The notes below the pieces were generated by a model. It was not told the DNA's origin and ran no database searches. It saw nothing but the letters and a program-made list of their open reading frames with translations. 64,000 nucleotides of DNA from Candidatus Altimarinota bacterium (GTDB taxonomy: Bacteria > Patescibacteriota > Gracilibacteria > UBA4473), in contig JAHDHX010000004.1 in the NCBI GenBank assembly GCA_020631075.1, positions 62,001-126,000 of the forward strand, given 5' to 3'. The position numbers were made by a program, and so were the translations under genes. The first letter of the stretch is position 1; every line of letters begins with the position of its first letter. Below, in pieces: positions 12,704 to 57,824 of this stretch.

Positions 12704-13747
12704 CTACACTATCGCGGGGTAGTACTCCAGCTGGGCACACAGGGCCTGCCCATGGCGAAAAAAGTCAGTCAGGTCGGTCACGACCCAGACGTTTTCGCCC
12801 GCGACGAGGCTGGGGAAGGCATTATAGGGGAAGCCCGCGGCCACGGGCACGCCGTTGTGGGTGACGGTCTGGGTGAAGCCGTCGATGACCACTGTGTCGC
12901 CCAGCTGCATGGTGACGGGCACGGTGTAGGCCGTGCCCGTGGTGGCGTTGACCACGGTGGGGTTGACCGCGGGGTCGACCGACGTGTATAGCCCCGGGGG
13001 GTGGGGCGGCTGGGTCAAGGGGTCGACCCAGGTGGGGTCGATGGTGAGGGTGATGCGTACGGGGGTCTTGACGGTGGAGAGTGACTCGATTGTGAAGCAG
13101 TTAAACAAGTCGTCGAGCGGCGTGTTGCAATAACTCACCCCCCCCTCACCCAGGTCAATCCCCCCGACGTACCCCTCCGCACAGACCTCCGTCGACTGCA
13201 GGTCGTCGATGTATACCCGATCATCCGCCGTGCGCAGCTTGACTGACCAGCGCGTGCAAAAGGGCTGCTGACAGTCCTCCGCCCACACCGTCAGCGACTC
13301 GGCCAGCTGGGCCATCACAAACCGTTCCTGCGTGCAGTCCTCACAGGCGGACTTCCACCGCAGCTCATAGAGGCTGCGGTCTGTCGGGGTCGGACAGTCC
13401 GCCACGCGCCAGATTTCTCTGAGGGCCCGCAGGGCTTTCTCGCGGCCTTCGGGGTGGGTGGCGTGCACCCGCCCCTTGATGGTTACCTCCCGCCCACCGC
13501 GCAGCACGGGGCCCAGCGTCGCCCCGTGCGCTAGCCCAGGGCAGCTGCGGGGGGTGGGGGTCAGCAAGGGCACGGCCTCGGGGTCAAAGTGGTCAATGGT
13601 GACAAAAAACTCCGTCTGGTCGAGGGTGCTGAGGTCAGCCGGCACGACCGTGGCGGACAAAGGGTCGCCGTCGGTGGGTTCTGGGGGCAGGGTGGTGGGG
13701 CTCTCGGCGAGGCGACCGTCAAAGGTGACCGAGTGACAACAGTGCAT
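12704..13747 (-). CDS. Distal-tail (Dit)-like phage protein, Cys-rich
   Basis: The 347-residue product starts MHCCHSVTFDGRL. I chose the ATG at 13747 because a palindrome and -10 box lie just upstream; an in-frame ATG at 13828 would extend it by 27 residues. The N-terminal half has GGREVTIKGRVHATHPEGREKALRALREIW, the pattern of siphovirus Dit/tail proteins in which a beta strand is followed by a long helix. The C-terminal half resembles the galectin-like Dit domain, ending VVTDLTDFFRHGQALCAQLEYYPA. It has 12 cysteines, including CEDC and HCC pairs, unusual for a tail protein. It is 105 nt upstream of the tail-tip gene. Confidence 0.6.
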   Translation of the reverse strand: MHCCHSVTFDGRLAESPTTLPPEPTDGDPLSATVVPADLSTLDQTEFFVTIDHFDPEAVPLLTPTPRSCPGLAHGATLGPVLRGGREVTIKGRVHATHPEGREKALRALREIWRVADCPTPTDRSLYELRWKSACEDCTQERFVMAQLAESLTVWAEDCQQPFCTRWSVKLRTADDRVYIDDLQSTEVCAEGYVGGIDLGEGGVSYCNTPLDDLFNCFTIESLSTVKTPVRITLTIDPTWVDPLTQPPHPPGLYTSVDPAVNPTVVNATTGTAYTVPVTMQLGDTVVIDGFTQTVTHNGVPVAAGFPYNAFPSLVAGENVWVVTDLTDFFRHGQALCAQLEYYPAIV

Positions 13748-13756
13748 AGGGAAACT

Positions 13757-13781
13757 GGGTGAGAAATCACCCCGAGCCATA
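13757..13781 (-). promoter_or_regulatory. Dit gene upstream module: -10 TATGGC plus GGGTGA-TTTC-TCACCC palindrome
   Basis: A perfect 6-bp palindrome with a 4-nt loop ends 9 nt before the ATG at 13747. It lies beside CTGCTATGGCTC, a match to the module upstream of the fibre gene. Confidence 0.45.
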
Positions 13782-13872
13782 GCAGGTGGGTAGGCAATAG
13801 ACCAAGACTGTTTGGAGGGGGCAAACACCCTTAGGCACTGCTCCAGTCATTTTTTACCTGCTGCTTTGGGTG

Positions 13873-17937: not shown

Positions 17938-18353
17938 GTTATTACAGAGTGAAAATAGTTCTCTCAAGAGTTTATTTCATCACTGTTTGACTCCTCTTGC
18001 CTGAAAATAGGCTGAAGCCCTGCCCTCGACGCCCTGTCGATTTCATTAAATCATGGCCGTGATGATGTACACGGCGCTTCCTCCTCCGAGATTTTTTGGC
18101 CGAGTGAAAACACCCGCAATATCCGGCGCTTCACTTCCAGGGTATTTGACAGGTGTTTTCGCCTATTTTATATAAAACCTCTCCTCATATTGCAAATGCA
18201 AAATTCACGCTTTTTTCAGGTTGGTCTGTTTTCGTACCCCAGTTTCGTTTTCCCTTTGGCCCTATTGCTGGGCTTGGGGTAAGGCAAAACTACCCCTCTT
18301 CCTCACTCGGTTTTCTTGGTTCTCTCTTTCATTTTCATTTCTTTTTTTCACTC
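17938..18353. other. Noncoding spacer with a strong promoter and long leader
   Basis: No gene is visible. It holds short palindromes near 18050 (for example CCGTG...CACGG) and the promoter at 18146, which would give the gene at 18354 a leader of about 170 nt. A regulatory role for that leader is possible but no known riboswitch is recognised. Confidence 0.5.
18146..18174 (+). promoter_or_regulatory. Consensus promoter TTGACA-17-TATATA
   Basis: Both hexamers are near consensus with the ideal 17-bp spacer. Transcription would start near 18181. Confidence 0.7.
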
Positions 18354-18614
18354 ATGACTACGCCCACACTCGCCACCGTCACCACCCCCCAGCCAGAGTC
18401 CCCTTGCCTGGCCCCCGCCCAGACGGACTTCCGCACGCTGACGCACCTGCACGACGAGCCCGTCGACCTGCGCGACTTGACCCACTTGGAGCTCATAGCT
18501 GTCTTCTGGGCGGAGCGACGGGCCTACCTCGCGCTGGAGTCGGAAATGATGCAGCTGGCCGAAGGCACCCACCCAGAGCTGATCGCCCAGACGCAGGACA
18601 TCGAGGTCGAATAG
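18354..18614 (+). CDS. Small hypothetical protein, 86 aa
   Basis: The product begins MTTPTLATVTTPQPES. Its C-terminal half is acidic and helical: DLTHLELIAVFWAERRAYLALESEMMQLAEG. An in-frame upstream ATG exists at 18153, but it lies within the promoter, so 18354 is preferred. No family is recognised. Its size, hydrophilicity and location among virion-like genes would fit a small phage accessory or chaperone, but it is on the opposite strand. The terminator at 18649 ends its transcript. Confidence 0.5.
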   Translation: MTTPTLATVTTPQPESPCLAPAQTDFRTLTHLHDEPVDLRDLTHLELIAVFWAERRAYLALESEMMQLAEGTHPELIAQTQDIEVE

Positions 18615-18648: not shown

Positions 18649-18682
18649 AAAAAAACCTCTGCACCGTGTGCAGAGGCTTTTT
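18649..18682. terminator. Bidirectional terminator between convergent small genes
   Basis: A perfect 9-bp stem CCTCTGCAC/GTGCAGAGG with a CGT loop is flanked by A and T runs on both sides. It serves the genes ending at 18614 and 18718. Confidence 0.9.
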
Positions 18683-18717: not shown

Positions 18718-18867
18718 TTAGCTGCACGTGCCGCCACCGCAACCACCACCAACGTAGCCGCATGAGCCACCACCGCAGCATCCGCCGCCGTGTCGACCAC
18801 AAGTGCCACCACCACAACCACCGAAGTTTTTACCGCAACCGCAACCGCCGCCTGAGAGAGTAGTCAT
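18718..18867 (-). CDS. 49-aa Gly/Cys microprotein
   Basis: The frame reads MTTLSGGGCGCGKNFGG and continues with CGGG, GGGCC and GGGCGGGTC blocks to a terminal Ser. By my count about half the residues are Gly and ten are Cys. It has no hydrophobic leader. A near-consensus promoter lies upstream (18902-18929), and a strong terminator lies 36 nt past its stop, so it has the parts of a real transcription unit. Possible roles are a metal-binding or disulfide-linked structural peptide, or a modified-peptide precursor; no modifying enzyme is recognisable nearby. The complementary strand also has a His/Arg-rich frame, which I take as its shadow. Confidence 0.6.
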   Translation of the reverse strand: MTTLSGGGCGCGKNFGGCGGGTCGRHGGGCCGGGSCGYVGGGCGGGTCS

Positions 18868-18901
18868 CAGAAATGTGAGAAAGAAAATACTGACACTGTG
18901 G

Positions 18902-18929
18902 AGTATAGAGTGCTAAAAGCGAGAGTCAA
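18902..18929 (-). promoter_or_regulatory. Promoter TTGACT-16-TATACT for the Gly/Cys microprotein
   Basis: On the minus strand TTGACT (18924-18929) is 16 bp from TATACT (18902-18907). The leader would be about 28 nt. Confidence 0.7.
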
Positions 18930-18985
18930 TAGCGGGTGGGTCGATGGTGTAGGCTGGGCTACGAAGAGCGTATATTACAACACTA

Positions 18986-19176
18986 GGGAGTGTGCACAAA
19001 TTGGAAAAAGAAGATTGATCCTGAAGTCTGAGGAGGGATTTGAGTGAAAAAAGGATCTTTTTGGCTGCAAAATGGTTGCGCATTTTTGCCTTGATCCATC
19101 AAGGCTGCAAATACGCGCCCATTTTTCGCTCAAAAATCTCTCTTTTTTCTCCTCAAACCAATTTGTTCACACTCCC
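18986..19176. mobile_element. MITE-like foldback repeat, copy 1 (191 bp)
   Basis: The terminal inverted repeats are GGGAGTGTGCACAAATTGG and CCAATTTGTTCACACTCCC. The interior is itself a long imperfect hairpin, with GAGTGAAAAA facing TTTTTCGCTC and a central CCTTGATCCATCAAGG palindrome. The dinucleotide TA flanks both ends, as in Tc1/mariner-IS630 target duplications. There is no internal gene. Its right end supplies the first base of the stop codon of the tail-tube gene (19176-19178). Confidence 0.75.
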
Positions 19177-19997
19177 TACAACGGATAGCGCCGCTGCCAC
19201 TGCGCGCACCAGCGGCTGCCGGGCGCCGCCGTGACGGTAACGGGCACCCCGTCGGGCAGCTCCGCCCCAGGGCAGCAGCTGGGCCAGGCCCACGCCACCC
19301 CACTGGTGACGGCCCCCTGGTCGAGGGTGAGGGTCAGCAAGTCGGCCTGGGACTGACCGGCTGTCAACGCTGGCACAACCTCGCACAGCTGCCACGCCCG
19401 CGTGGGGGCCAGCCCCGTGGTCGGGGGGCTGAGTTTGATCTCATTGGCGGGGGTAAACGCGTAGTCAACCAGCAGCTCGTCGCCCTGCGCCAGGCCACTG
19501 CCGGGCAGGGGCACCACGACTGTGTACCCGCCCCAGACCCCCACAGTGTAATGCACCCCCTCCACCAGCAACGCCCCCGCCGCCGTGCTGATGCTCAGGG
19601 CCGTCACCGTGGGCGCAGCGTGGTTTTGGTGGGTGATCACCCCCGCATATTGCTCCGACGTCAGCAGATGGTCGAGCGTGACCACCTCCGCCGCCACGGT
19701 CAGACTGGGCCCGAGGTCGAGGGTGGTCGGCTCCCAGCCATAGAGCGTCTGGTACAGCCACGGGCTGCGCACCGCGTGCAAGGTGAAGCGCACCCGCGGC
19801 GACTGCGTGACGATGGTCGGGGCGGGGGCACAGGGGGTGCACGGCCCGCAGTCGTGCATGGTGGTGTCGGTCAGCCACGTCACGTCGCACACTCCCGCCA
19901 CGGTGGCGAAGTCGTCGAGGGCGGGGTCAAAGACCTTGAGGACGGCCTGACTGAAAAGGTGGTCCGTGCGAAGAGGCGAAAGGACAGGGGCAGACAT
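19176..19997 (-). CDS. Tail-tube (major tail) protein candidate
   Basis: The 273-residue product (MSAPVLSPLRTDHLFSQAV) is beta-rich. It includes a segment typical of viral tube/Ig-like proteins: ALSISTAAGALLVEGVHYTVGVWGGYTVVVPLPGSGLAQGDELLVDYAFTPA. The assignment rests mainly on position, next after the DUF3168-like tail terminator. It has 8 cysteines including CGPCTPC. The C-terminus WCAQWQRRYPL ends at a TAG formed at the junction with the copy 1 repeat, so the original C-terminus may have been slightly different. A GGGTG...CACCC hairpin precedes the start. Confidence 0.5.
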   Translation of the reverse strand: MSAPVLSPLRTDHLFSQAVLKVFDPALDDFATVAGVCDVTWLTDTTMHDCGPCTPCAPAPTIVTQSPRVRFTLHAVRSPWLYQTLYGWEPTTLDLGPSLTVAAEVVTLDHLLTSEQYAGVITHQNHAAPTVTALSISTAAGALLVEGVHYTVGVWGGYTVVVPLPGSGLAQGDELLVDYAFTPANEIKLSPPTTGLAPTRAWQLCEVVPALTAGQSQADLLTLTLDQGAVTSGVAWAWPSCCPGAELPDGVPVTVTAAPGSRWCAQWQRRYPL

Positions 19998-21009: not shown

Positions 21010-21015
21010 ATATTA
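21010..21015 (-). promoter_or_regulatory. -10 box TAATAT, leaderless, overlapping the connector stop
   Basis: GCTAATAT is followed by 8 nt and the ATG at 21001. Confidence 0.45.
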
Positions 21016-21687
21016 GCAGATGCCCCACGTCAGGCAGCGGTAGTCTTCGAGCAGGGTCATGAAGGTGCGCCCCGCAGCTGAACCCCCCAACCACTGGCGA
21101 AGGTACGCCCCGCCCGTGCTGAAGGCCACACTGCAGCACGGGTCGACCACCGTGCGGCTGACGCTCGTGCGGGTGCTGGTGGTGGTCGGGTCACCGCAGC
21201 ACCCCCGGCTGTAGGTAAAGTCACCCAGCGTCACGCGGTCACCTGGGGCGAGGCAGTCGAGCAGCGACTGGTCGCTGCCACTGGTGGTGCTGATGTCGGT
21301 GTCGTCGGTGTCACCTGTGCTGTCACTGTCGTCGTCAGTGGGGTCGTCTGGGGCGGGGGTGGGCTTGCGTTCGAGGCTCAGCAAATACGCCGCCGCCAGC
21401 GTCGCCTGCTGCACCGCGTGGGGGATGCCCAGCTGCTGGGTTGTCTGCCCCGTGTCAGGGTCAGTGACACACACCGTGTCACACGCCCGCGGGAAGAGCG
21501 TCGACTGCTGACACGGGTCGCAGCTGGCGGGCGTGGCAAATCCAACATAGTGGTCGACATAGCCCTGCGCGGTCAGCAGCAGGTCAGTCAGTTGCGCCTC
21601 GGGCCAGGGCGCGAGTTCAGGGCACTGGGCCAGCAGGTCCGCCACAGTGGCGTAGCAAAGCGTCGGGGTCTGGGTGGGGTAGGTCAT
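21013..21687 (-). CDS. gp6-like head-tail connector candidate, very Cys-rich
   Basis: The 224-residue product starts MTYPTQTPTLCYATVADLLAQCPEL. The N-terminal helices (VADLLAQCPELAPWPEAQLTDLLLTAQGYVDHYVG) fit the HK97 gp6/'phage head-tail connector' pattern, in which positions and a helix bundle of this kind recur. An Asp/Ser/Thr-rich loop (about 125-155) is an insertion. It contains 13 cysteines by my count, including CDPC, GCCG and PCCS. I chose the ATG at 21687, which is downstream of a perfect hairpin; the longer frame to 21759 would cross that hairpin. Confidence 0.5.
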   Translation of the reverse strand: MTYPTQTPTLCYATVADLLAQCPELAPWPEAQLTDLLLTAQGYVDHYVGFATPASCDPCQQSTLFPRACDTVCVTDPDTGQTTQQLGIPHAVQQATLAAAYLLSLERKPTPAPDDPTDDDSDSTGDTDDTDISTTSGSDQSLLDCLAPGDRVTLGDFTYSRGCCGDPTTTSTRTSVSRTVVDPCCSVAFSTGGAYLRQWLGGSAAGRTFMTLLEDYRCLTWGIC

Positions 21688-28052: not shown

Positions 28053-28754
28053 ATGAACGAAAATCCCCTGGTGTACGTCCACGCCCCTGACCCAAACACT
28101 AAAGCCCTGCTCGAGCTAGCCGCCGAAGAGTTGAGCGAAGACCTCCCCGACGCTCGGGTGCAGCTGATCAAGCAGCTCTCACCCCCCGCCGACCATGCCC
28201 CTGACACGCCCACCGTGCTGGTGCTCAGTGGCCAGCTGGCCTTGTCGGAGCTCCCCGAATGGACCCGCACCAACGTCCAACTGGTGATCTTCCAGCCCGA
28301 AGACCTCGAAGACGTGCCCCTCTGGGCCAACGAAACCCCCTGCTTCGCCCCCTATGACGGGCTTAACCCCCGCGGCTCACTGCAGAGCGCCATCATTGAC
28401 AAAGTAAAAGAAACCATCGAAACCTTACTCACCACCGACGCTGACACCACTCTCACTCCCCACGCTGACACTACACCAGATCCCCTCCCCCACCCTGACC
28501 AGTCGCTCCGCCTCCCCCAGCCCGCCGCCCAGCAGCTGCTCGACGCATTGGCCGACCGTTACCGCACGCTGGGCCCTGACGCGTTCCGCGTGTCGGGTGG
28601 CTTCCGCCTGCCCAACGGCTGGTCGCTCGGGGTGGCCCAGCCGCAGTACATCCTGCGGCAGCTGCTCGCCCACACGGCTGACGACCTCCCCACCAGCATG
28701 GCCGCCTGGCAGCGGGTACTAGGCAGTGTTAACAAATTGGAAAAAACAGGTTGA
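28053..28754 (+). CDS. Hypothetical protein whose C-terminus runs into a MITE-like repeat
   Basis: The 233-residue product has an N-terminal alpha/beta region (LVYVHAPDPNTKALLELAAEEL...TVLVLSGQLAL...NVQLVIFQPEDLEDVPLWA) whose strand-helix rhythm suggests a Rossmann or receiver-like fold. A Thr/Pro-rich linker follows, then a second helical domain (AAQQLLDALADRYRTLGPDAFRVSGGFRLPNGWSLGVAQPQYILRQLLAHT). The last 11 codons and the TGA lie inside repeat copy 2, so the native C-terminus has been replaced. TATTAT lies 10 nt before the ATG. It diverges from the giant coiled-coil gene. Confidence 0.6.
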   Translation: MNENPLVYVHAPDPNTKALLELAAEELSEDLPDARVQLIKQLSPPADHAPDTPTVLVLSGQLALSELPEWTRTNVQLVIFQPEDLEDVPLWANETPCFAPYDGLNPRGSLQSAIIDKVKETIETLLTTDADTTLTPHADTTPDPLPHPDQSLRLPQPAAQQLLDALADRYRTLGPDAFRVSGGFRLPNGWSLGVAQPQYILRQLLAHTADDLPTSMAAWQRVLGSVNKLEKTG

Positions 28755-28910
28755 TCCTAAAATATGGAGAGATTTGAGTGAAAAAAGAATCTTTTTGGCT
28801 GCAAAATGGTTGCGTATTTTTGCCTTGATCCATCAAGGCTGCAAATACGCGCCCATTTTTCGCTCAAAAATCTCTCTTTTTTCTCCTCAAACCAATTTGT
28901 GAACACTCCC
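28722..28910. mobile_element. MITE-like foldback repeat, copy 2 (189 bp)
   Basis: The ends are GGCAGTGTTAACAAATTGG and CCAATTTGTGAACACTCCC, and the interior is nearly identical to copies 1 and 3. TA precedes the left end but TG follows the right end, so a target duplication is incomplete. It supplies the last codons and stop of the gene at 28053. Confidence 0.75.
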
Positions 28911-28944
28911 TGGGCCTGAGTTATTAACCAGCTGCGAAATCCCC

Positions 28945-29658: not shown

Positions 29659-30711
29659 CTAGGCCGTAAACACCTGCTGCGACGCAAACGCCTGCGGCGA
29701 GGTGAAGACGGGCGCCCCCACCCACGAGTGGTAGACACACTGGGTTTTGGGGTTTGACTCGGTCAACAGTTCGACGTGCGAGCCATAGGTCTGGCCCGTG
29801 CAGTCGTCGACATTCAGGCAGTCATAGCAATTGACCCCCGTGGTGGTGCCGTTGCAGCCGCGGTACACCACCACCCCGTCTGGGACGTACGGCGTCCAGA
29901 CCCCCGTGGCGTCGGTGTACCCCGCGTCATACACCCGCACGCCCATCCCGCGCACTTTGGGAATGTCAGTGCCCATCACGAGGCAAGAGCGCAGACACTC
30001 GCCGAGCTCTTCACGCACACTGTCCGCTTGGACAAATTTTGTGTACGTTTCTTGGTTCATGACCATCTCACACGGGGTGAAGCACGTCCCGCGGAAGCTC
30101 AGCCGCGCGTCGTCGATGTCTTGGAGCGGGGTCGAGTTGACCTCGTCGGTCCAGACGTCGGTGCCCGTCAGGCTGGGCAGCACGGTCGTGCCTGTGTTGA
30201 TGGTGATGGGCCCCGCCCCTGGGTCAGCGGTGTCGACATTCATCTGGCCCATCACCCCCTCCCAGAATGATTTTTCTTTCAGCTGGGCGGCCCGCTGGGC
30301 CAGCACGTCAAAGGCCCGCTGCACTGCCCCCGCAATCGCGCCCAGCTGGGCGTCGGTGGCGCAGCCGTTCTTGGCGGCATAGATGTGCGTCAGCAGCTCG
30401 TGGTCAAAGCAGCACGTCTCCTTGGTGACGATCGCCCCAAAGATCTCTGTGGCGAGGTCGCCTTTGGGCACCTCGGTGGCGGCGTCACCCAGCTCGACGG
30501 CTTGAGCGATGCCTTTGTTGGGCTCGAAGGCCGTGAAACGGATGTGGATGCCGTCGTGCTTGATCGGCTCCCCCATGATCTGGTGCCCGAGGAGGTTTTC
30601 GGCCTGGGCGCACATCGCCGTGGGGAAGAGGACGTTGGCGGCGTCGTTGGTCAACAGGAAGTTGGGGCCGCACTCGCGCATGATCTGCGCAATGGTCGTA
30701 GTCGTAGGCAT
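29659..30711 (-). CDS. Phage major capsid protein, lambda gpE-like
   Basis: The 350-residue length matches the gpE family (about 340). The N-terminal region has the A.NLLGHQIMGEPIKHDGIHIRF...GIAQAVELGD..TEV pattern, and a central helix region is followed by a conserved late part: FTPCEMVMNQETYTKFVQ, IPKVRGMGVRVYDAGY and TPYVPDGVVVYRG. These match the HK97-fold capsid E family, in which 'V.vwvYd..y......pylPdg.v' recurs. It has 14 cysteines, about 4 percent of residues, including CC, CFTPC, CLRSC and CYDC..DDC groups. TGTATAAT upstream is one of the strongest -10 boxes in the window. Confidence 0.8.
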   Translation of the reverse strand: MPTTTTIAQIMRECGPNFLLTNDAANVLFPTAMCAQAENLLGHQIMGEPIKHDGIHIRFTAFEPNKGIAQAVELGDAATEVPKGDLATEIFGAIVTKETCCFDHELLTHIYAAKNGCATDAQLGAIAGAVQRAFDVLAQRAAQLKEKSFWEGVMGQMNVDTADPGAGPITINTGTTVLPSLTGTDVWTDEVNSTPLQDIDDARLSFRGTCFTPCEMVMNQETYTKFVQADSVREELGECLRSCLVMGTDIPKVRGMGVRVYDAGYTDATGVWTPYVPDGVVVYRGCNGTTTGVNCYDCLNVDDCTGQTYGSHVELLTESNPKTQCVYHSWVGAPVFTSPQAFASQQVFTA

Positions 30712-42823: not shown

Positions 42824-45800
42824 TTAGCGCCAGGTGACTTCGAGTCGTTTGGCACCCAGCACCCAGCGGCGGTCAAACTCACCGCTGCCGTCGATGTCAC
42901 AGGTGATGACGGTCATCTCGGCGTGGGGGTCGATCTCGGTAATGGGGTCGGTGTGGGTTTTATTGATCAGTTCTTTGCCCGTCACAATGTAGGTTTCGAT
43001 GCGGTTGTCGACTTCGAGGGTGTATTCGTCACCGACGTTGAGGCCGCTCTCGACCCAAGAGAAGACTTGGGTGTAGGGCTCGTCCGCGGGGCCAGTGGCG
43101 TGCCCCAGCACGATGTAGCGATCTTCGTCCGCGCGAGGATCTTCGTAGAAGACAGCCCCTTTGCTGAGGTCGTAGGCCCATGAGCCACTCTCCGACAGGG
43201 TCGTGCGGTGGACAGGCACACTGTCTTGGCTGAAGTGGAGGGTCATCTGGTCGAAGTAGCGGTCGTTGTCGCCGTCGAGCATGTGGATGATGCGGTACAG
43301 CACGTGGTAGTACTCACCCACGGTCACCCGCGTGTCGGCGTCGGCCTCCCACAGGAGGTACGGCGTAGCGAGGTCTTTGTCACGGAGGACGTCGACCAGA
43401 TAGTCGTAGCCGAGCTCGGCGTAGACCGATTCGTCGTGGAGGTCGAAGGCGAAGTTGACCATGTAGACGAGCTCTTGCCAGGTGAGCTCCTGCGTGGCAC
43501 CGAAGGTGTGCTGGTCGATGGGGTTCATGAGGCCCGCTCGGACAACACCCTGCACGACTTGCTCGTCCCAGGTGTCATACACGTCGTGGAACTGACCGTG
43601 GTTGACTTGCTCGTAGGGGATCTCCGCCGCGTTGAGGAGCACTTGGGCGGCCTCGACACGGGTCACCGCGCGGGTGAGGCTGTCGACGGAGCGTGAGTCG
43701 ATCACCTCGTGGAGGCTGAGCGTCACAGCGGCTTCGTAGTATTCGTCTTCGATGTCGAGCTCAGGGAACATGACGTCGAGGCCGAAATTAGCGATGAGGT
43801 CTTCGGCGAAGCCCGTCTGCGGGATGACCGCAATGTCGGTGATCGGTCGCTCGCGGTAGCGCACCGGTTGCACGACGGGGGCTTGGTAGACTGGCGGGAC
43901 GTAGGCCGAAAGTGGCACGTAGCTGTCGTCGATGGTCACGATGGTGGCTGGGGTGCCAGTGGGTCGGTAGCTGCCGCCCCAGTATTGGCTCGGGCCACTG
44001 CCGCCCCCGCCGCCCGAAGTGGAGCTGCCACTGCCGCCGCTGGTGCCACCAGTGCTGGTGCTGCTGGTGAAGACACCGTTGGTGTTGGTGACGGTGCCGC
44101 TGAGGTCACCGTTGGTGGTGGGCTCGACGGTACACACGCCCCCGATGACGATGAGGGCTTCGTCACAGCCGTAGGGGTTACAGACGCCGTCGGCGTCGTC
44201 ACAGTCTGTCAGGTCGTCACACGGGGCTTGGCCATACCCACCACAGCTGATGAGGGTACAAATGCCAGCGATGTTTTCGTAGGGGTCTTCACAGCCGTCG
44301 TCGTTACAGGTCTCGACTACCGTCGTGTCGGGGTCGTCACAGTGGTTGGGGTTGTCACAGGCGGGTTGGCCGTAGTCACCACACTGGGGGTCGCTACACA
44401 CACCGTCGATGTCGACGTAGAAGTCGTCACAACCGTCGGCGTTACAGACGCCGTCTGAGTCGTCACAGTCGGTGACGTCGTCACAGGTGCTGGCTCCCAG
44501 GTCACCACACTCGGGCGTCTGGCAGATGCCGTCGCTGTCCATGATCAGGCCTTCGTCACAGCCTGTCTCGCCGCAGGTTTCGACCTCAGTGGTGTCGGGG
44601 TCGTCACAGGCGGTGTCGTCACAGGTCTCGACTTCGTCGGTCATGGGGTCGTCACACTCGTCGCCCGTGGGGCAGTGGGGTTGGCCCACACCGCCACAGC
44701 TGACACAGATCTCAAGGTCGGCGTCATACACAGTGCCTGTTTCACACCCGTCATTGTCACAGGTTTCCACTACCGTAGTGTCAGGGTCGTCACAGTCACC
44801 GCCGTTGTCACACGGGGGTTGACCGTCCGCACCACAGGCCACACACACCTCAGGGGTGGCGGGGTTGGCGTCGTGGTCGTGCGGGGCGAGGCCTGCGTCA
44901 CACCCAGTGTCACACGTTTCGACTACGTCTGGGGTAGCAGGGTCGTCACAGAGGGTACACATCGGGTCGCTCAGTGGGTCACACGGGCATTGCTCTTGCC
45001 CGACGCCGCCACAGGTGCCTGTTTGGCAGAGTTCTGTCACGGGGTCGTACACAGCCGGGGCTTCACAGCCGTCGTCTTCACAGGTTTCGACCACGGTAGT
45101 GTCAGGGTCGTCACAGTCGCCGCCGTTGTCACACGGGGGTTGACCGTCCGCGCCACAGGCCACACACACCTCAGGGGTGGCGGGGTTGGCGTCGTGGTCG
45201 TGCGGGGCGAGGCCTGCGTCACACCCAGTGTCACACGTCTCGACTACGTCTAGGGTAGCAGGGTCGTCACAGAGGGTACACATCGGGTCACTCAGCGGGT
45301 CACACGGGCACTGCTCTTGCCCGACGCCGCCACAGGTGCCTGGGCAGGGTACTTCAACTCCGACTGCGGCGTCACCACCGATCATCCCGCCGACGGCCAC
45401 ACCAGAGTCAAATAGCTCCACTGAGCCCGGCTGGATGCTGCTGTAGGCAAAGCCTTCTGCGTCGTAAATAGACTGGATGCACGCGGCCAGACCAGCGTCA
45501 TTAATTTCACCAACATAGATTCCATTCGCACAATAATCAGCGAAGTTGAAGTCGTAACCACCGAGAGTAATGCCAGTGTATTCGGCGCGGGCCGTGTCAA
45601 TGCGGTAACAGAGCTCGTCGTCGAGGGTTTCGACTTCACAGAGTTCTGTCTCTGGGTTATAGATCAACCCTTCGTCACAGTCGGTCACGGGGTCACAGAT
45701 CTCTACTTCAGCGGTGTCAGGGTCGTCACACAGGTCACAGTCGTCACCACTTAGTGGGTCACACGGGCACTGGGGTTGACCGATGCCGCCACAAGTGCCT

Positions 45801-48800
45801 GTTTGGCAGAGTTCTGTCACGGGGTCGTACACAGCCGGGGCTTCACAGCCGTCGTCTTCACAGGTTTCGACCACGGTAGTGTCAGGGTCGTCACAGTCAC
45901 CGCCGTTGTCACACGGGGGTTGACCGTCCGCGCCACAGGCCACACACACCTCGGGGGTGGCGGGGTTGGCGTCGTGGTCGTGCGGGGCGAGCCCTGCGTC
46001 ACACCCAGTGTCACACGTTTCGACTACGTCTGGGGTAGCAGGGTCGTCACAGAGGGTACACATCGGGTCGCTCAGTGGGTCACACGGGCATTGCTCTTGC
46101 CCGACGCCGCCACAGGTGCCTGTTTGGCAGAGTTCTGTCACGGGGTCGTACACAGCCGGGGCTTCACAGCCGTCGTCTTCACAGGTTTCGACCACGGTAG
46201 TGTCAGGGTCGTCACAGTCGCCGCCGTTGTCACACGGGGGTTGACCGTCCGCGCCACAGGCCACACACACCTCGGGGGTGGCGGGGTTGGCGTCGTGGTC
46301 GTGCGGGGCGAGCCCTGCGTCACACCCAGTGTCACACGTTTCGACTTCAGGGGTAGCAGGGTCGTCACAGAGGGTACACATGGGGTCTGTCAGCGGGTCA
46401 CACGGACACTGGGGTTGACCAGGGCCGCCGCATTCGTCAGGACAGTCATTGCTGAAGATTCCAATAAATCTTGCCCAGAGCCTTCCACCTGTACTACTCG
46501 CAGTAAAGATTGATTGGAAATCAGTGCTACTGCCTGTCACTACATACGTGATGTTGGGGAAATTTAAGCCGACGGTGATTTCACCGACACCGTAGGTGGT
46601 GTCAAACCATGACTGGATAGCCGCCACAAACACTGTTGCACTTGGGTCAGCTACTTTGTCCCATTCAATGGTCGCGGTAGTAGAAACTCCCCCCTTTGTC
46701 GCTCCACCAAAACGGAAACGATTACTCGTATCACCATTCAAAATCCCTTGCACAGTGTCCGCACACTCCGCGGCACAGATGCCATTGGTGTCGACGAGTG
46801 GATCTTCACACGCTGGGCCATCTGGGCAGGTCGGCTGACCGAGCTGGCCGCATTCGTCAGGACAGTCATTTGTAAATTCTCTATCTACAATTCTGGGGAA
46901 ACTTCCTTCACGTCTTACTCTTAACTGCTCGAAATCTTCAGCTGTTCCTGTCACAATTACTGTCAAACTTGGTTGATTCCAAGCCAATGTTAGCTCTCCA
47001 ACTCCATAAGTGGTATCAAGCCACGTTTGAACATCAGTGATAAACTGCGTTCCTAATGGATCGGTCCCTGTCCGATCCCAGACAATATCCGCTATAGATT
47101 CTACACCACCTTTGGTAATTGAATAGAAATAGGCTGTGTCAGTACCGAAATCAAGATCAGGGAAAGTGACAAGGTCTGCACACTCCGCGGCACAGATGCC
47201 ATTGGTGTCGACGAGTGGATCTTCACAGCCCGTGTCTGGGCAGGTCGGCTGACCGAGCTGGCCACAGGCCGTGTCACACTCGCTGAAAGTAAAGAAGTCA
47301 GCGGGGACAGGGACGGCGGCTTGGTAGCCGTCCATTTGTGTCCAGGTGGCTCCACCGTCAAATGAAACTTGGTGTTGCATTGCAGGCTCGTCTTCGATCA
47401 AACCACATTCGTGGAAGTAGAAGTAGATTTCTTTGGCTACGCTGGTGGCGGTGTCGGTGACCGTCAAACGCAGGTAATTATTCAGGCCGTTACTGAGTGG
47501 AGAAGCGTCGCAGTTGTCGTTGTAATTTCCGAGATTCCCGGTCAGTGGTGTCGTCAGGAAGCCCGCAGTGTCAGGAGCGACTGTCGGCACTGCGGGGGGG
47601 GCTGCTGTCGTGACGCCATCACTCCAGACGTCCCAGCTGTAGGTAAAGCTAGTGGTCGGCATGCCGATCAAACCAATGTTGTTTACGTCTGGTTTGTTTA
47701 GGTCAGTGGGAAAGTCCAGGTCATGCATAAAGTATGGGCCGTACGGACAGACGGCTTCGGGTTCGCAGTACCCCGTGGCTGGGTTGGTCACGAAAGGGGC
47801 GGTACAACTGTCGTCAGGACAAACGGGCTGGCCGACGTCACCACACTCGGCGACGGGCTCGGCCACACACAGGCCTGAGACTGGGTCGACATTGTACCCT
47901 GCGTCACAGCAGGGCTCTGGTGACTCTGGTGTACACTCTGTCGACACGTCACAGGCTGGTTGCCCCTCCGCACCACAGGCCACACAATATGTATTGCCGT
48001 CGTCGGCGACGTCTGGCACGAGGCCCTGGTCACAGAGATTGTGGCAGGTTTCACCCAGTGGATTGGCTTCACAGTCAGTCGGTTCGTCACATTGCAGTTG
48101 GCCTTCCTCACCACACGGGTAACAGACACCATCGTTTAGGACTTCGCCTGGGTCACAGGTCACGCCACAGCCAGCGGTGGCTTCGAAGGTGACTGGAGGG
48201 TTAACCGCATTGTTTGTACTTACATCATCTACATACTCTTTTGTACCTCCGTATATACCCGCAACCGCTTGCTCATATTCCTTAGAAGTCACCAAATACG
48301 CAGTGTTTGAAACCGTGCCACACGCATCAGTTTCTTCGGTGAAACTTATCCCTAAACTACACTGTTGACCAGGTTCCAAGGAACAATAAAATGCTGCATC
48401 ATGTGTCACATCATTGTAAGCACTGCCCAAAACTGGGCCCGTTTCACTCAGGGTTACATTGGTAATCTCCCCCGGCAGATCGTCGTACGCAAATGCTGTG
48501 CCGGCTGTATTGCCCTCATTTTTGATCGTCAGCACATAGTATCCAGAACCTTTCAAAAACTTATCTATCGAGAAGTCAGTTACATCAGTTGTACAACCGT
48601 TGGTACCACTCAGGTTTGAGTCCGTACTGCTGTTATTACTGTTATTGCCGTCGGTGTAGATGGTTTCGAGTGTCGCGGTCGGGGTCGCTCGCACTGATTC
48701 AAATTCATCGCCGGTAATTAACATAGCCGTGTTGACTACTGGGTCACCACAGACATTTGATTCGTTATATTGCAATCGAATCACACAAACATCTGTCCCA

Positions 48801-51001
48801 TCTGCACTCCCCGCACCTTGCAGCTTACACCCCCCCCAGGCAGCATTCACCGTTGTGTCCACTTCAGGGCTGATCAGATAAGGGTAAGTCGAGGAAATGC
48901 TCGTCAACTCCAAGCCACTGGGGGCGGCGTCGTACCAGTAAGCTGCAACACCAGCACTATCAAAATTTTGAAGCGTAATTATGTATTCTCCACTAACCCA
49001 TTCTTTGGTAATGCTCACATCAGGGGCAGCGGCTTCACAGCTTTCTGAAGCTGTCATTGTATTTGTAATGGGGTCAGTGTTGGCAAATATCTGAGTAATC
49101 TCAACGGTGGGTGGCGTCGTGCCGAGTCCTTCAACGATTATGTCAAAAAAATGTGCTTCTGGATTACTTGGGTAAGAATAGACCGTAAATCCACTGTACC
49201 CAGCTAAGATGAGGGCATTGGTCAGTTGTGCTTCATAGGCATCACCCCCGACTGTACCATCCGTGTTGTAGACCGTTTCCGTTCCGTCAGGTGCCGTGAT
49301 GGTAATGGTCTGGATACCACGATTATTGCGATCAGTTGGTATTATGGCTTGTAAATAACATGCAGAACTCGTGTATGCACAGTAGCCGTTTTCATCAGCT
49401 GCCCCAGGGGCCAGGCAATCATAGCCTTCATCGTCACAGATACGCTCCCCGAGTTCACCACACGGGGCACAATTTCCACCAGTAATCTCGACTTCACCTT
49501 CGGCACAGCTCGCTGGGCAATCGTTAGGGTTAAACCCTTCAGGGAAAGAGTTTACATCTGTACATTCTGCCGGGCACAATGACCCAGAAAATCTAGGACA
49601 CGGTGGATTTTTACACAATGTCACCGGATTACAGGCATTGTTGGCTTCACAAGATTCATAGAGGTCACAGGCCCCTCCATTGTCTGCTACACACACACCA
49701 CCACTCTCTACCAGACCTGCATCACAGCCAAACTCATTACACTGTTCAATAGTCTTCGTACCTAAGTCGTCGCACCCTGCTGGGTCAGTACAGACTGGCT
49801 GGCCCTCGCCGCCACAGGCTGTTGCTAGCTCACACAAACCACTGGTAGTGTTAAACACTGTTCCAGCGTCACAACATGAAGATTTTAAGTCTGGGTCACC
49901 TGGCGCTGCAGGTTCTACACACGCATCATTTGAGCTACACGCTGGCTGGCCGTCAGCCCCACACGCTACACTCGCTGTACAGAGTCCACCAACGATAGAA
50001 AAGCCAGGGTTGCAGTAGTCCGTACAACCATTGATTCGATCACACGATTGACACGGCACTTCGCCTTCCGCCCCGCAGGACGCCTCGACACACAGGCCTC
50101 CTTCCAGCACGAGCAAGGTATCACAGCCGTCTGCCGTACACGCTTGGTCGTTGGTGCTGCCACAGTAGTTCCCGGTCGTACACGGAGCTTCATTGTTGCC
50201 ACCACAAATCGGGGTGGGTTCACAGGTGGCAGTGTCAACGTCATACTCTAGACCCGCGTCACAACACGAATCAGGAACCGCGGGGTCTCCTGCTCCCGCT
50301 GGAGCAATACAACCTTCTGGGGCACTCGCACCCACACATGGGTCAGCGCCTTCACCACCACAGGTCACACTCACTTCACAAGTTCCACCGATTACTTCGA
50401 GGATTTCATCACAACCATTTACAAAACATGGCTGGTCATTGGTGTCACCACAATTGTCATACTCACAAGCTGTCTCCCCGACACCACCACAGATTACATT
50501 CTCGCAAAATCCTTCATTGACTGGGTTATTGGCGGAGAGAGTGTTTCCATCGGCGTAATATGCCGTTGAGGTATAAGCATCAAATACTTCAGCAGAATCA
50601 TCTACTTTCAAATTTGATGATGGAGCTGACGTAATAGCTGAAATAGCATTTCCTGACGGCATCTTGGACGCCAGAAACGCATTCACATTCGCCATAAAGG
50701 TCGCTCCGCCTGGGTCAGCCGCTACGTCATACGTCAGCGGGAAAACACTCGGATCAGTCGTCGCGTCGTACGTCACTCCTTCAATAGTGAAAGAATTATA
50801 CTCAAAAACGGTGAGGGGGCTGCCCGTGTTGAAGTGCGGCCCAATGTTGGTAGTAAAATTATAATCACACTGCTGGAGGGTGTTGCCAACGAGCTTCCCC
50901 TGCAGCTGCTCGCCCAGGTTTTGCTGGCTGATATACATCCCGCCCAGAGCCATCAGCAGGCCCAGACAGCAAAATGATAGATACTTTTTCCACTGTTTCA
51001 T
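42824..51001 (-). CDS. 2725-aa secreted Cys-rich surface protein with degenerate SLH region
   Basis: The N-terminus (MKQWKKYLSFCCLGLLMALGG) is a signal peptide or anchor. Most of the protein consists of short Cys modules, CG..GQP.C..., C...GC(D/E)..L and ..C.CDP, of a roughly EGF-like or metal-binding flavour. Beta-rich domains of about 100 residues are inserted between them, and there are two DUF11-like segments (FSIDKFLKGSGYYVLTIKNEGN). A 107-residue unit is repeated nearly identically (see the repeat entry). After a Gly/Ser linker the last 330 residues contain SLH-like helices (TRVEAAQVLLNAAEIP, ELTWQELVYMVNFAF, TVGEYYHVLYRII) without the canonical motif, then a beta domain. It is likely a wall-anchored stalk or adhesin. 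Its own terminator follows. Confidence 0.8.
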   Translation of the reverse strand: MKQWKKYLSFCCLGLLMALGGMYISQQNLGEQLQGKLVGNTLQQCDYNFTTNIGPHFNTGSPLTVFEYNSFTIEGVTYDATTDPSVFPLTYDVAADPGGATFMANVNAFLASKMPSGNAISAITSAPSSNLKVDDSAEVFDAYTSTAYYADGNTLSANNPVNEGFCENVICGGVGETACEYDNCGDTNDQPCFVNGCDEILEVIGGTCEVSVTCGGEGADPCVGASAPEGCIAPAGAGDPAVPDSCCDAGLEYDVDTATCEPTPICGGNNEAPCTTGNYCGSTNDQACTADGCDTLLVLEGGLCVEASCGAEGEVPCQSCDRINGCTDYCNPGFSIVGGLCTASVACGADGQPACSSNDACVEPAAPGDPDLKSSCCDAGTVFNTTSGLCELATACGGEGQPVCTDPAGCDDLGTKTIEQCNEFGCDAGLVESGGVCVADNGGACDLYESCEANNACNPVTLCKNPPCPRFSGSLCPAECTDVNSFPEGFNPNDCPASCAEGEVEITGGNCAPCGELGERICDDEGYDCLAPGAADENGYCAYTSSACYLQAIIPTDRNNRGIQTITITAPDGTETVYNTDGTVGGDAYEAQLTNALILAGYSGFTVYSYPSNPEAHFFDIIVEGLGTTPPTVEITQIFANTDPITNTMTASESCEAAAPDVSITKEWVSGEYIITLQNFDSAGVAAYWYDAAPSGLELTSISSTYPYLISPEVDTTVNAAWGGCKLQGAGSADGTDVCVIRLQYNESNVCGDPVVNTAMLITGDEFESVRATPTATLETIYTDGNNSNNSSTDSNLSGTNGCTTDVTDFSIDKFLKGSGYYVLTIKNEGNTAGTAFAYDDLPGEITNVTLSETGPVLGSAYNDVTHDAAFYCSLEPGQQCSLGISFTEETDACGTVSNTAYLVTSKEYEQAVAGIYGGTKEYVDDVSTNNAVNPPVTFEATAGCGVTCDPGEVLNDGVCYPCGEEGQLQCDEPTDCEANPLGETCHNLCDQGLVPDVADDGNTYCVACGAEGQPACDVSTECTPESPEPCCDAGYNVDPVSGLCVAEPVAECGDVGQPVCPDDSCTAPFVTNPATGYCEPEAVCPYGPYFMHDLDFPTDLNKPDVNNIGLIGMPTTSFTYSWDVWSDGVTTAAPPAVPTVAPDTAGFLTTPLTGNLGNYNDNCDASPLSNGLNNYLRLTVTDTATSVAKEIYFYFHECGLIEDEPAMQHQVSFDGGATWTQMDGYQAAVPVPADFFTFSECDTACGQLGQPTCPDTGCEDPLVDTNGICAAECADLVTFPDLDFGTDTAYFYSITKGGVESIADIVWDRTGTDPLGTQFITDVQTWLDTTYGVGELTLAWNQPSLTVIVTGTAEDFEQLRVRREGSFPRIVDREFTNDCPDECGQLGQPTCPDGPACEDPLVDTNGICAAECADTVQGILNGDTSNRFRFGGATKGGVSTTATIEWDKVADPSATVFVAAIQSWFDTTYGVGEITVGLNFPNITYVVTGSSTDFQSIFTASSTGGRLWARFIGIFSNDCPDECGGPGQPQCPCDPLTDPMCTLCDDPATPEVETCDTGCDAGLAPHDHDANPATPEVCVACGADGQPPCDNGGDCDDPDTTVVETCEDDGCEAPAVYDPVTELCQTGTCGGVGQEQCPCDPLSDPMCTLCDDPATPDVVETCDTGCDAGLAPHDHDANPATPEVCVACGADGQPPCDNGGDCDDPDTTVVETCEDDGCEAPAVYDPVTELCQTGTCGGIGQPQCPCDPLSGDDCDLCDDPDTAEVEICDPVTDCDEGLIYNPETELCEVETLDDELCYRIDTARAEYTGITLGGYDFNFADYCANGIYVGEINDAGLAACIQSIYDAEGFAYSSIQPGSVELFDSGVAVGGMIGGDAAVGVEVPCPGTCGGVGQEQCPCDPLSDPMCTLCDDPATLDVVETCDTGCDAGLAPHDHDANPATPEVCVACGADGQPPCDNGGDCDDPDTTVVETCEDDGCEAPAVYDPVTELCQTGTCGGVGQEQCPCDPLSDPMCTLCDDPATPDVVETCDTGCDAGLAPHDHDANPATPEVCVACGADGQPPCDNGGDCDDPDTTVVETCDNDGCETGTVYDADLEICVSCGGVGQPHCPTGDECDDPMTDEVETCDDTACDDPDTTEVETCGETGCDEGLIMDSDGICQTPECGDLGASTCDDVTDCDDSDGVCNADGCDDFYVDIDGVCSDPQCGDYGQPACDNPNHCDDPDTTVVETCNDDGCEDPYENIAGICTLISCGGYGQAPCDDLTDCDDADGVCNPYGCDEALIVIGGVCTVEPTTNGDLSGTVTNTNGVFTSSTSTGGTSGGSGSSTSGGGGGSGPSQYWGGSYRPTGTPATIVTIDDSYVPLSAYVPPVYQAPVVQPVRYRERPITDIAVIPQTGFAEDLIANFGLDVMFPELDIEDEYYEAAVTLSLHEVIDSRSVDSLTRAVTRVEAAQVLLNAAEIPYEQVNHGQFHDVYDTWDEQVVQGVVRAGLMNPIDQHTFGATQELTWQELVYMVNFAFDLHDESVYAELGYDYLVDVLRDKDLATPYLLWEADADTRVTVGEYYHVLYRIIHMLDGDNDRYFDQMTLHFSQDSVPVHRTTLSESGSWAYDLSKGAVFYEDPRADEDRYIVLGHATGPADEPYTQVFSWVESGLNVGDEYTLEVDNRIETYIVTGKELINKTHTDPITEIDPHAEMTVITCDIDGSGEFDRRWVLGAKRLEVTWR
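44768..46434 (-). repeat. 321-bp coding repeats, four copies
   Basis: Copies lie at about 44768-45020 (partial), 45021-45341, 45801-46121 and 46122-46434. Each encodes 107 residues with 13 or so cysteines (HDHDANPATPEVCVACG in every copy). They are almost identical at DNA level, pointing to recent duplication or homogenisation. A unique beta domain splits the two pairs. Confidence 0.9.
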
Positions 51002-52617: not shown

Positions 52618-53949
52618 ATGTCGCACCCCACGCCCGACTCCCCCACCGCCACATTGCCCCTGCCGCACCCCTACTTGCACCAGACCCACACCCAGCGCGC
52701 CCGCTACGCGCGGATGCTCCAAGGCGACTTTGGTGGGTTTTTTGACAGTTTGTCGGCTGGCACCGGCACCAGCGCCACCACGGGTGCGCTCTTCCCGCGG
52801 TTGGAAGCCATGCTCAAAGCCAAAAAAGCCGACTGGTCCACCGCCCTGCCCACCTTCCCCAACTACTTCCGCGCCATCGCCAACCTCATTTCGGACTTCA
52901 CCATCGGGTCGGGGGTTGACTTCCATTGGCGGTCATACGGCGACGCGGAGGCAGGGTTTCAGCAATGGTGGCGCACGCACGGCCTGGACGAGCTCCTCCT
53001 ACGGCAGTTGTCGCTCACCATCGCGACGGGGGTCAGCGGCCTGCGCCTAACGTGGCACGACGGGCAGCTCCTCCCCACACCGCTGGGCTTCGCCAACTTC
53101 CTCCCGCTGGGCTCGCCCGAGCACGGCTTTGACCAGCGCTCCCCCCGGGTGGGCTGGGTGCTGGGCGCGAGTGAATTTGACCAGTTTGCCCAGCAGCACG
53201 ACCTGCTGCCCGTCACGGGGGCGGTGCTCTACACCATCACATACCAGCAGGGGCCAGACGGATACCACGCCACGCACCAGCTGACCCAGCACGCCACCCC
53301 CACCGCCAGCGGCCAGTCCCCCACCCTGCGGCCAGACCTCCTCCCCATGGTTGACCCGTCACAGTCGCTGCACCCTGACGGATCTGAACAATTTTTTTAT
53401 TCTCACTCCCCCGTCACTTGGCTCCACTCCCCCCTGCGTGACCCCTACGGCCTGGGGCAGTCGGCTTTCACCGACATCGTTTCGGAGGTGCAGACCCTCG
53501 CCTTCCTCGAAACCGTCACCACCATCGAGATGCAAACTCACTTCTTGTCCAAGCTGGCCGTGCCCCGCTCGATGGTCAGTCGGCGGGCGGGGCGACCGCA
53601 GCTCAAACCGATGGAGTTCCTCGCCTTTGAGGATGACGGCCAGCTCCCGCGGTACATCCAGAAGGACAACAAGTTTTTCACCGACCTGTGGCGATATATG
53701 GCGCAGCTGCGCACTGACATCGCGCTGGAGACGTCTGTCCCCTATGAGCTGCTGGCCAAAGACCACATCACCGGCAACGAACGCGTCGAGCTCGCCCGCA
53801 TCCGCACCCAGCCCTTCCGTCGGCTGATCGGGAAGTACCAACGGGCCGTCCGTCAGCACATCTACCAGCTGGCCGAGAGCTACTGGACGCAAACCCACGG
53901 CGAAGTCGCCCCACGGTTTCGGATCGAGCTGCCGAGTTTGGAGCTGTGA
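52618..53949 (+). CDS. Phage portal protein, SPP1 gp6-like
   Basis: The 443-residue product starts MSHPTPDSPTATLPLPHPYL; upstream in-frame codons are less plausible. It has the portal layout: an N-terminal helical part (FRAIANLISDFTIGSGVDFHWRS), a central wing (GYHATHQLTQHATPT) and the conserved segment PVTWLHSPLRDPYGLGQSAFTDIVSEVQTLAFLETVTTIEMQTHFLSKLAVP, then RYIQKDNKFFTDLWRYMAQLRTDIALETSVPYELLAKD. Portals form the dodecameric DNA gate at one capsid vertex. It is on the opposite strand and 20 kb from the capsid gene, which is unusual. No terminase gene adjoins it. Confidence 0.7.
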   Translation: MSHPTPDSPTATLPLPHPYLHQTHTQRARYARMLQGDFGGFFDSLSAGTGTSATTGALFPRLEAMLKAKKADWSTALPTFPNYFRAIANLISDFTIGSGVDFHWRSYGDAEAGFQQWWRTHGLDELLLRQLSLTIATGVSGLRLTWHDGQLLPTPLGFANFLPLGSPEHGFDQRSPRVGWVLGASEFDQFAQQHDLLPVTGAVLYTITYQQGPDGYHATHQLTQHATPTASGQSPTLRPDLLPMVDPSQSLHPDGSEQFFYSHSPVTWLHSPLRDPYGLGQSAFTDIVSEVQTLAFLETVTTIEMQTHFLSKLAVPRSMVSRRAGRPQLKPMEFLAFEDDGQLPRYIQKDNKFFTDLWRYMAQLRTDIALETSVPYELLAKDHITGNERVELARIRTQPFRRLIGKYQRAVRQHIYQLAESYWTQTHGEVAPRFRIELPSLEL

Positions 53950-57570: not shown

Positions 57571-57691
57571 TATTGCTGCAGACCAACTATTGATCGTGCT
57601 TGCAGGGCTGCTTGCTCTTGCCCTTGGGACTCGGAAGTGTTCACAAATTTGGAATAAGGAGATTGAGCTTGAAGTATCAAGTAAGATTTGA
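57560..57691 (+). CDS. 43-aa hydrophobic frame coupled to the peptidase, cut by a MITE-like repeat
   Basis: The frame MLNDIAADQLLIVLAGLLALALGTRK overlaps the peptidase gene by 11 bp and holds one membrane helix. The last 18 or so codons and the stop come from repeat copy 3. This may be the remnant of a longer membrane partner of the peptidase, or a membrane anchor still expressed in short form. Confidence 0.4.
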   Translation: MLNDIAADQLLIVLAGLLALALGTRKCSQIWNKEIELEVSSKI

Positions 57692-57824
57692 GTGAAAAAA
57701 GGATCTTTTTGGCTGCAAAATGGTTGCGCATTTTTGCCTTGATTCATCAAGGCTGCAAATACGCTCCCATTTTTCGCTCAAAATTCTCTCTTTTTTCGCC
57801 TCAAACCAATTTCTGAACACTCCC
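57633..57824. mobile_element. MITE-like foldback repeat, copy 3 (192 bp)
   Basis: The ends are GGAAGTGTTCACAAATTTGG and CCAATTTCTGAACACTCCC. The interior hairpin differs from copy 1 at only a few positions. No target duplication is visible. Its right end abuts the promoter of the gene at 57847. Confidence 0.75.

Follow-up and report, generated by a model that had tools for sequence, protein, structure and literature searches.

Does a very short reading frame dominated by glycine and cysteine codons encode a working peptide, or is it repetitive DNA that stays open by accident? The question is raised by a locus within the window, a 64,000-nucleotide stretch covering positions 62001-126000 of one contig of a Candidatus Altimarinota genome, assembled as 1.46 Mb in 50 contigs and 95.9% complete. 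An initial annotation described a 49-residue Gly/Cys microprotein with its own promoter and terminator, set among Cys-rich virion genes, and offered metal binding, crosslinking or peptide modification as possible roles.

The reading frame and its transcription signals

The frame itself is borne out. It occupies 49 codons of the minus strand, from ATG to TAA (Table 1), and reads MTTLSGGGCGCGKNFGGCGGGTCGRHGGGCCGGGSCGYVGGGCGGGTCS. Gly (24 residues) and Cys (9 residues) together account for 67% of the peptide; the "about ten" Cys first reported are in fact nine. At 0.67, its Gly+Cys fraction ranks first of the 667 window ORFs of at least 30 aa, where the runner-up reaches 0.37. In the ORF core the fraction is 0.75, a composition far beyond chance: it was equalled in 0 of 5000 dinucleotide shuffles (maximum 0.51), a null that leaves triplet repeats outside what it models. 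The span originally given for the locus, 18718-18929, takes in the ORF and its promoter but leaves the terminator outside and names no strand.

Table 1. Sequence features at and around the Gly/Cys ORF, in window coordinates.
Feature	Position	Strand	Basis or remark
49-aa Gly/Cys ORF	18718..18867	-	translation; top Gly+Cys fraction of 667 ORFs
Repeat unit 1, C-G-G-G-T-C	18799..18816	-	in-frame motif reading
Repeat unit 2, C-G-G-G-S-C, extra Cys just before	18760..18777	-	in-frame motif reading
Repeat unit 3, C-G-G-G-T-C	18724..18741	-	4 base differences from unit 1, all at synonymous third positions
Sigma-70-like promoter, TTGACT-16-TATACT	18902..18929	-	10/12 matches
-10-to-ATG stretch, 34 nt, pyrimidine-rich 5' leader without Shine-Dalgarno	18868..18901	-	sequence
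9-bp terminator hairpin, T tracts on both strands	18656..18676	.	common to ORF and convergent gene
Convergent 86-aa gene	18354..18614	+	no family (NCBIfam E ≤ 1, PHROGs E ≤ 0.001; one sub-threshold Pfam match), searched as 18348-18614, two codons longer
Neighbour gene, 273 aa, 2.9% Cys	19176..19997	-	present in one other Gracilibacteria MAG
MITE-like element, 21-bp terminal inverted repeats	18984..19178	.	between promoter and next gene

Upstream, the promoter is present as described, on the same strand as the ORF and ending 34 nt before the ATG. By count alone the match is not above chance, since one site was found in the surrounding 2.1 kb against 0.5 expected, and since sites with at least 9/12 matches occur upstream of 4/27 gene starts in the sense and 3/27 in the antisense orientation. 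By place and strength it is suggestive: this is the sole 10/12 site among the 27 upstream regions, and both its distance and its strand are right. Downstream, the perfect 9-bp terminator was likewise recovered; it is bidirectional and shared with the convergent gene. Transcription would start about 7 nt past 18902, continue through the ORF and stop at this shared hairpin. At the level of sequence, the support for a microprotein equipped with transcription signals of its own is good.

The last 20 nt before the ATG are 85% pyrimidine and lack a Shine-Dalgarno motif, which was flagged at none of the 32 starts examined (the ORF and 31 others). Leaders of at least 75% pyrimidine precede 10 of the 31 other starts, as against 3.5% of random 20-mers; the count includes faulty rows, in that 20097, 20591 and 22065 are out of frame or not starts, and the row at 52620, which starts at a non-start codon, is itself among the 10. 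Translation would begin at the ATG without a Shine-Dalgarno motif, behind a pyrimidine-rich leader of the kind present at several neighbours.

The same promoter-to-terminator layout could instead yield a regulatory sRNA some 230 nt long, in which the ORF is incidental. The whole transcript, including the terminator, gives z = -2.53 against shuffles, as such an RNA might. Folded by itself, the ORF comes out at z = +0.28, which places most of the excess structure in the terminator. Because the ORF RNA carries no excess fold, a structured regulatory RNA is improbable; in addition, no Rfam family was found within the window at the gathering threshold.

Coding signal and the search for relatives

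Three C-G-G-G-[T/S]-C units lie in frame and can be compared over eight aligned codons. Sites that vary among them number 2, 0 and 6 at codon positions one, two and three, respectively (third-position P = 0.02), in a comparison comprising only eight variable sites and units picked by eye; between units 1 and 3, 4/4 differences are synonymous. This third-position variation weakly suggests selection on the protein. Where the second codon position is G and the first is not, the first is T (Cys) in 9/11 codons (P = 0.0014), and the TGN codons are 9/9 TGY, with neither TGA nor TGG. Code 25, in which TGA encodes Gly, was considered for this genome and rejected: 9/29 listed ORFs end in TGA, a count from ORFs called under table 11 and hence not independent, and translation with that table leaves long frames open.

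These patterns bear on a further explanation, a neutral or decayed GGT-type triplet repeat whose frame is open by accident and which has no functional product. The 24 Gly codons of the ORF comprise 14 GGT, 9 GGC, 1 GGA and 0 GGG, unlike those of minus-strand genes in the window (GGT 19%, GGG 27%) and unlike those of ribosomal-protein genes. Given this codon use, the ORF may have originated as a GGT triplet repeat, an origin compatible with function. Strong codon adaptation was rejected, as GGT is not preferred in ribosomal-protein genes, and strong expression is thus not indicated. Besides the GGT-heavy Gly codons, the neutral explanation draws on the V/A reading of the same strand, which is also open through the core, and on the lack of relatives in class genomes, the phylum sample and GTDB contigs. 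It is opposed by: the third-position bias among units, the first-position T bias and the missing TGA and TGG; the ATG and promoter standing ahead of the frame; and the shuffle result, though its null has no triplet-repeat model. A neutral repeat is unlikely on these grounds, if a serious contender; were it correct, the locus would advise caution in reading Gly-rich frames as genes.

A search for conserved small Gly/Cys frames in related genomes had been put forward as a check, and it returned none but the ORF itself in the class, phylum-sample, viral and phage sets. The peptide matched only its own genome among 353 class genomes (1/353) and in a 379-genome phylum sample that overlaps the class set (1/379). 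Against 60 relatives, 2/60 matched at E ≤ 0.1, its own genome and G053; the latter was rejected as a relative, neither strand reading as a Gly/Cys protein. Pattern scans of IMG/VR and of GTDB contigs gave 42 and 593 stretches, respectively, with 0 confirmed in either, and no relative was found in GenBank phages or the PDB. At E ≤ 1, the peptide matched 0 Pfam families, metallothioneins included, and no NCBIfam family. The pattern C-GGG-[TS]-C occurs in 24 of the 353 class genomes; frames were read at those loci and in 36 IMG/VR stretches, and only the ORF itself resembles the ORF. The genus is represented by this genome alone in the sets searched. No homologue was found in any set searched, so no conservation between genomes is seen, and on present data the ORF appears to be a lineage-specific orphan. 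A limited literature search found no description of such a peptide.

Taken in aggregate, a real, separately transcribed small gene is probable. Counted for it is the independent occurrence of Cys-rich short tails in the same class. Counted against it are the lack of a homologue, a contig in another genome (G004, discussed below) that is without the ORF, the atypical Gly codons, and a promoter count at chance level.

A different Cys/Gly-bearing protein was encountered in the same class. The product of L033:1453-1788 (minus strand) is small, has two TM segments and is rich in Cys at its ends; it is matched in 57/353 class genomes. Across 12 loci read (L098-L109), the tails of this family are Cys/Gly and fast-changing, one of them with CGGGSC. 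The family resembles the ORF in its short Cys/Gly tails, but the L033 protein is set apart by a pair of hydrophobic segments and by its conserved core, and no homology to the ORF was seen; nor did the genome that contains the window give a match to it at E ≤ 0.001. It was rejected as a relative, being a different family, possibly an uncharacterised membrane family that binds metal.

Candidate function of the peptide

The favoured explanation of the orphan gene is a flexible, disordered, cytoplasmic peptide that may act as a soft-metal or thiol buffer, a candidate function proposed tentatively. By inspection, the peptide has neither a signal peptide nor a hydrophobic stretch, and its Cys residues are spaced as CX4C and CC within flexible Gly, together with one His. 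The reduced peptide might remain in the cytoplasm, where the CX4C and CC thiolates and the single His are predicted ligands for the soft metal ions Zn, Cu(I) and Cd; it might then act like a metallothionein, buffering metal stress or redox stress. Metal binding is putative but plausible from the residues present.

Bacterial metallothioneins of the SmtA/NmtA type are also small, Cys-rich and, by appearance, cytoplasmic, and space their Cys as CXC/CXH. The ORF peptide differs from these in being far richer in Gly, in its one His and its CX4C/CC spacing, and in having no Pfam match at E ≤ 1. The original observation is confirmed and its first interpretation partly supported; the peptide is interesting, but its mechanism is not demonstrably new. 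If the peptide is translated, the streamlined genomes of CPR bacteria include thiol peptides that are very short, of low complexity and invisible to homology methods, and this one would be a candidate buffer of metals or redox state in cells whose metabolism is limited.

The composition also invites comparison with precursors of modified peptides, such as a microcin B17-like azole RiPP, a sactipeptide or similar. The core of microcin B17 (McbA), a YcaO azole peptide, is Gly-rich and contains Cys, as does that of the ORF. However, YcaO had 0 matches in this 95.9%-complete genome, in a search whose control was positive in 5/14 genomes, which makes a YcaO-modified peptide unlikely. Only MTTLS stands ahead of the Gly/Cys region, which begins at residue 6, so no recognisable leader peptide is present, and NCBIfam gave no match at E ≤ 1. 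The suggestion of a modified peptide is weakened accordingly and is very improbable.

Virion genes, Cys-rich proteins and flanking elements

At the level of sequence, an MCP-like gene (29659-30711; Phage_cap_E, E = 2e-12; 4.0% Cys) and a Dit-like gene (12704-13828; 3.2% Cys) show virion ancestry, and the product of 21013-21687 contains 5.8% Cys. The MCP-like and Dit-like genes are about 16 kb apart with unrelated genes between them; virion genes appear scattered, with no compact prophage. Neither query found anything in IMG/VR. No recognisable virion domain was found in either direct neighbour of the ORF (PHROGs, Pfam, NCBIfam), so a position "among Cys-rich virion genes" holds for the wider region but not for the genes next to it. 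At seven IMG/VR loci (L041, L043, L044, L046, L048, L052 and L053) the encoded viral proteins are alike and share a conserved segment of the CHLLKGCGGGSCGC type; they look like Cys-rich head-tail adaptors.

Predicted proteins of Peribacteria average 1.67% Cys, and large Cys-rich extracellular proteins, mostly with signal peptides, are described there (PMC4736985). With such Cys-rich proteomes in related Peribacteria, high Cys would be partly a lineage trait, and the Cys-rich virion setting only partly special. The ORF shares with these large proteins its broad lineage and its richness in Cys, but is 49 aa long and without a signal peptide (PMC4736985). A 2725-aa protein encoded in the window (42824-51001, minus strand; 193 Cys, 7.1%) resembles them (PMC4736985).

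The virion genes raise the possibility that the peptide is a crosslinker or moron-type cargo, with disulfides joining it to Cys-rich structural proteins after lysis. A moron has its own promoter and terminator between virion genes, and such signals are present at the ORF; the 3-4% Cys of the MCP-like and Dit-like products and the 5.8% Cys of 21013-21687 are consistent with such a partner. Yet the virion genes are spread over 64 kb amid non-phage genes, neither direct neighbour is recognisable as virion, VKOR was not found in the genome, and IMG/VR and GenBank phages held no phage relative. The crosslinking first suggested is favoured by the neighbourhood alone, and the proteomes of related Peribacteria are Cys-rich in any case, at 1.67% (PMC4736985). 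A virion role of this kind is doubtful, ranking below the neutral repeat and above the regulatory RNA, with the modified peptide last. Most speculatively, the peptide could cement a Cys-rich virion, or particle-like element, of this ultra-small Gracilibacterium or carry a metal cofactor for it. This is improbable, and if true would make it a thiol-based virion or metal-buffer peptide of a new kind.

A moron would be expected to be absent from the same place in a related phage. Gene 19176-19997 has, among 99 genomes, one relative besides itself, in G004 (35% identical), and a scan of GTDB contigs for this gene likewise gave one locus. The G004 contig is without the Gly/Cys ORF, but it is only 4.2 kb long and its flanks differ. 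An AlphaFold model of the 19176-19997 protein, from a 2-row alignment, gave a pLDDT of 27.

The stop codon of this gene overlaps one end of the MITE-like element, which is about 195 bp long with inverted ends that are 95% complementary. Near-full copies of this family number 21 across the genome, including the one here, the other 20 being 89-95% identical to it, and six partial matches besides. Further copies lie in the window at 28718-28911 and 57629-57824.
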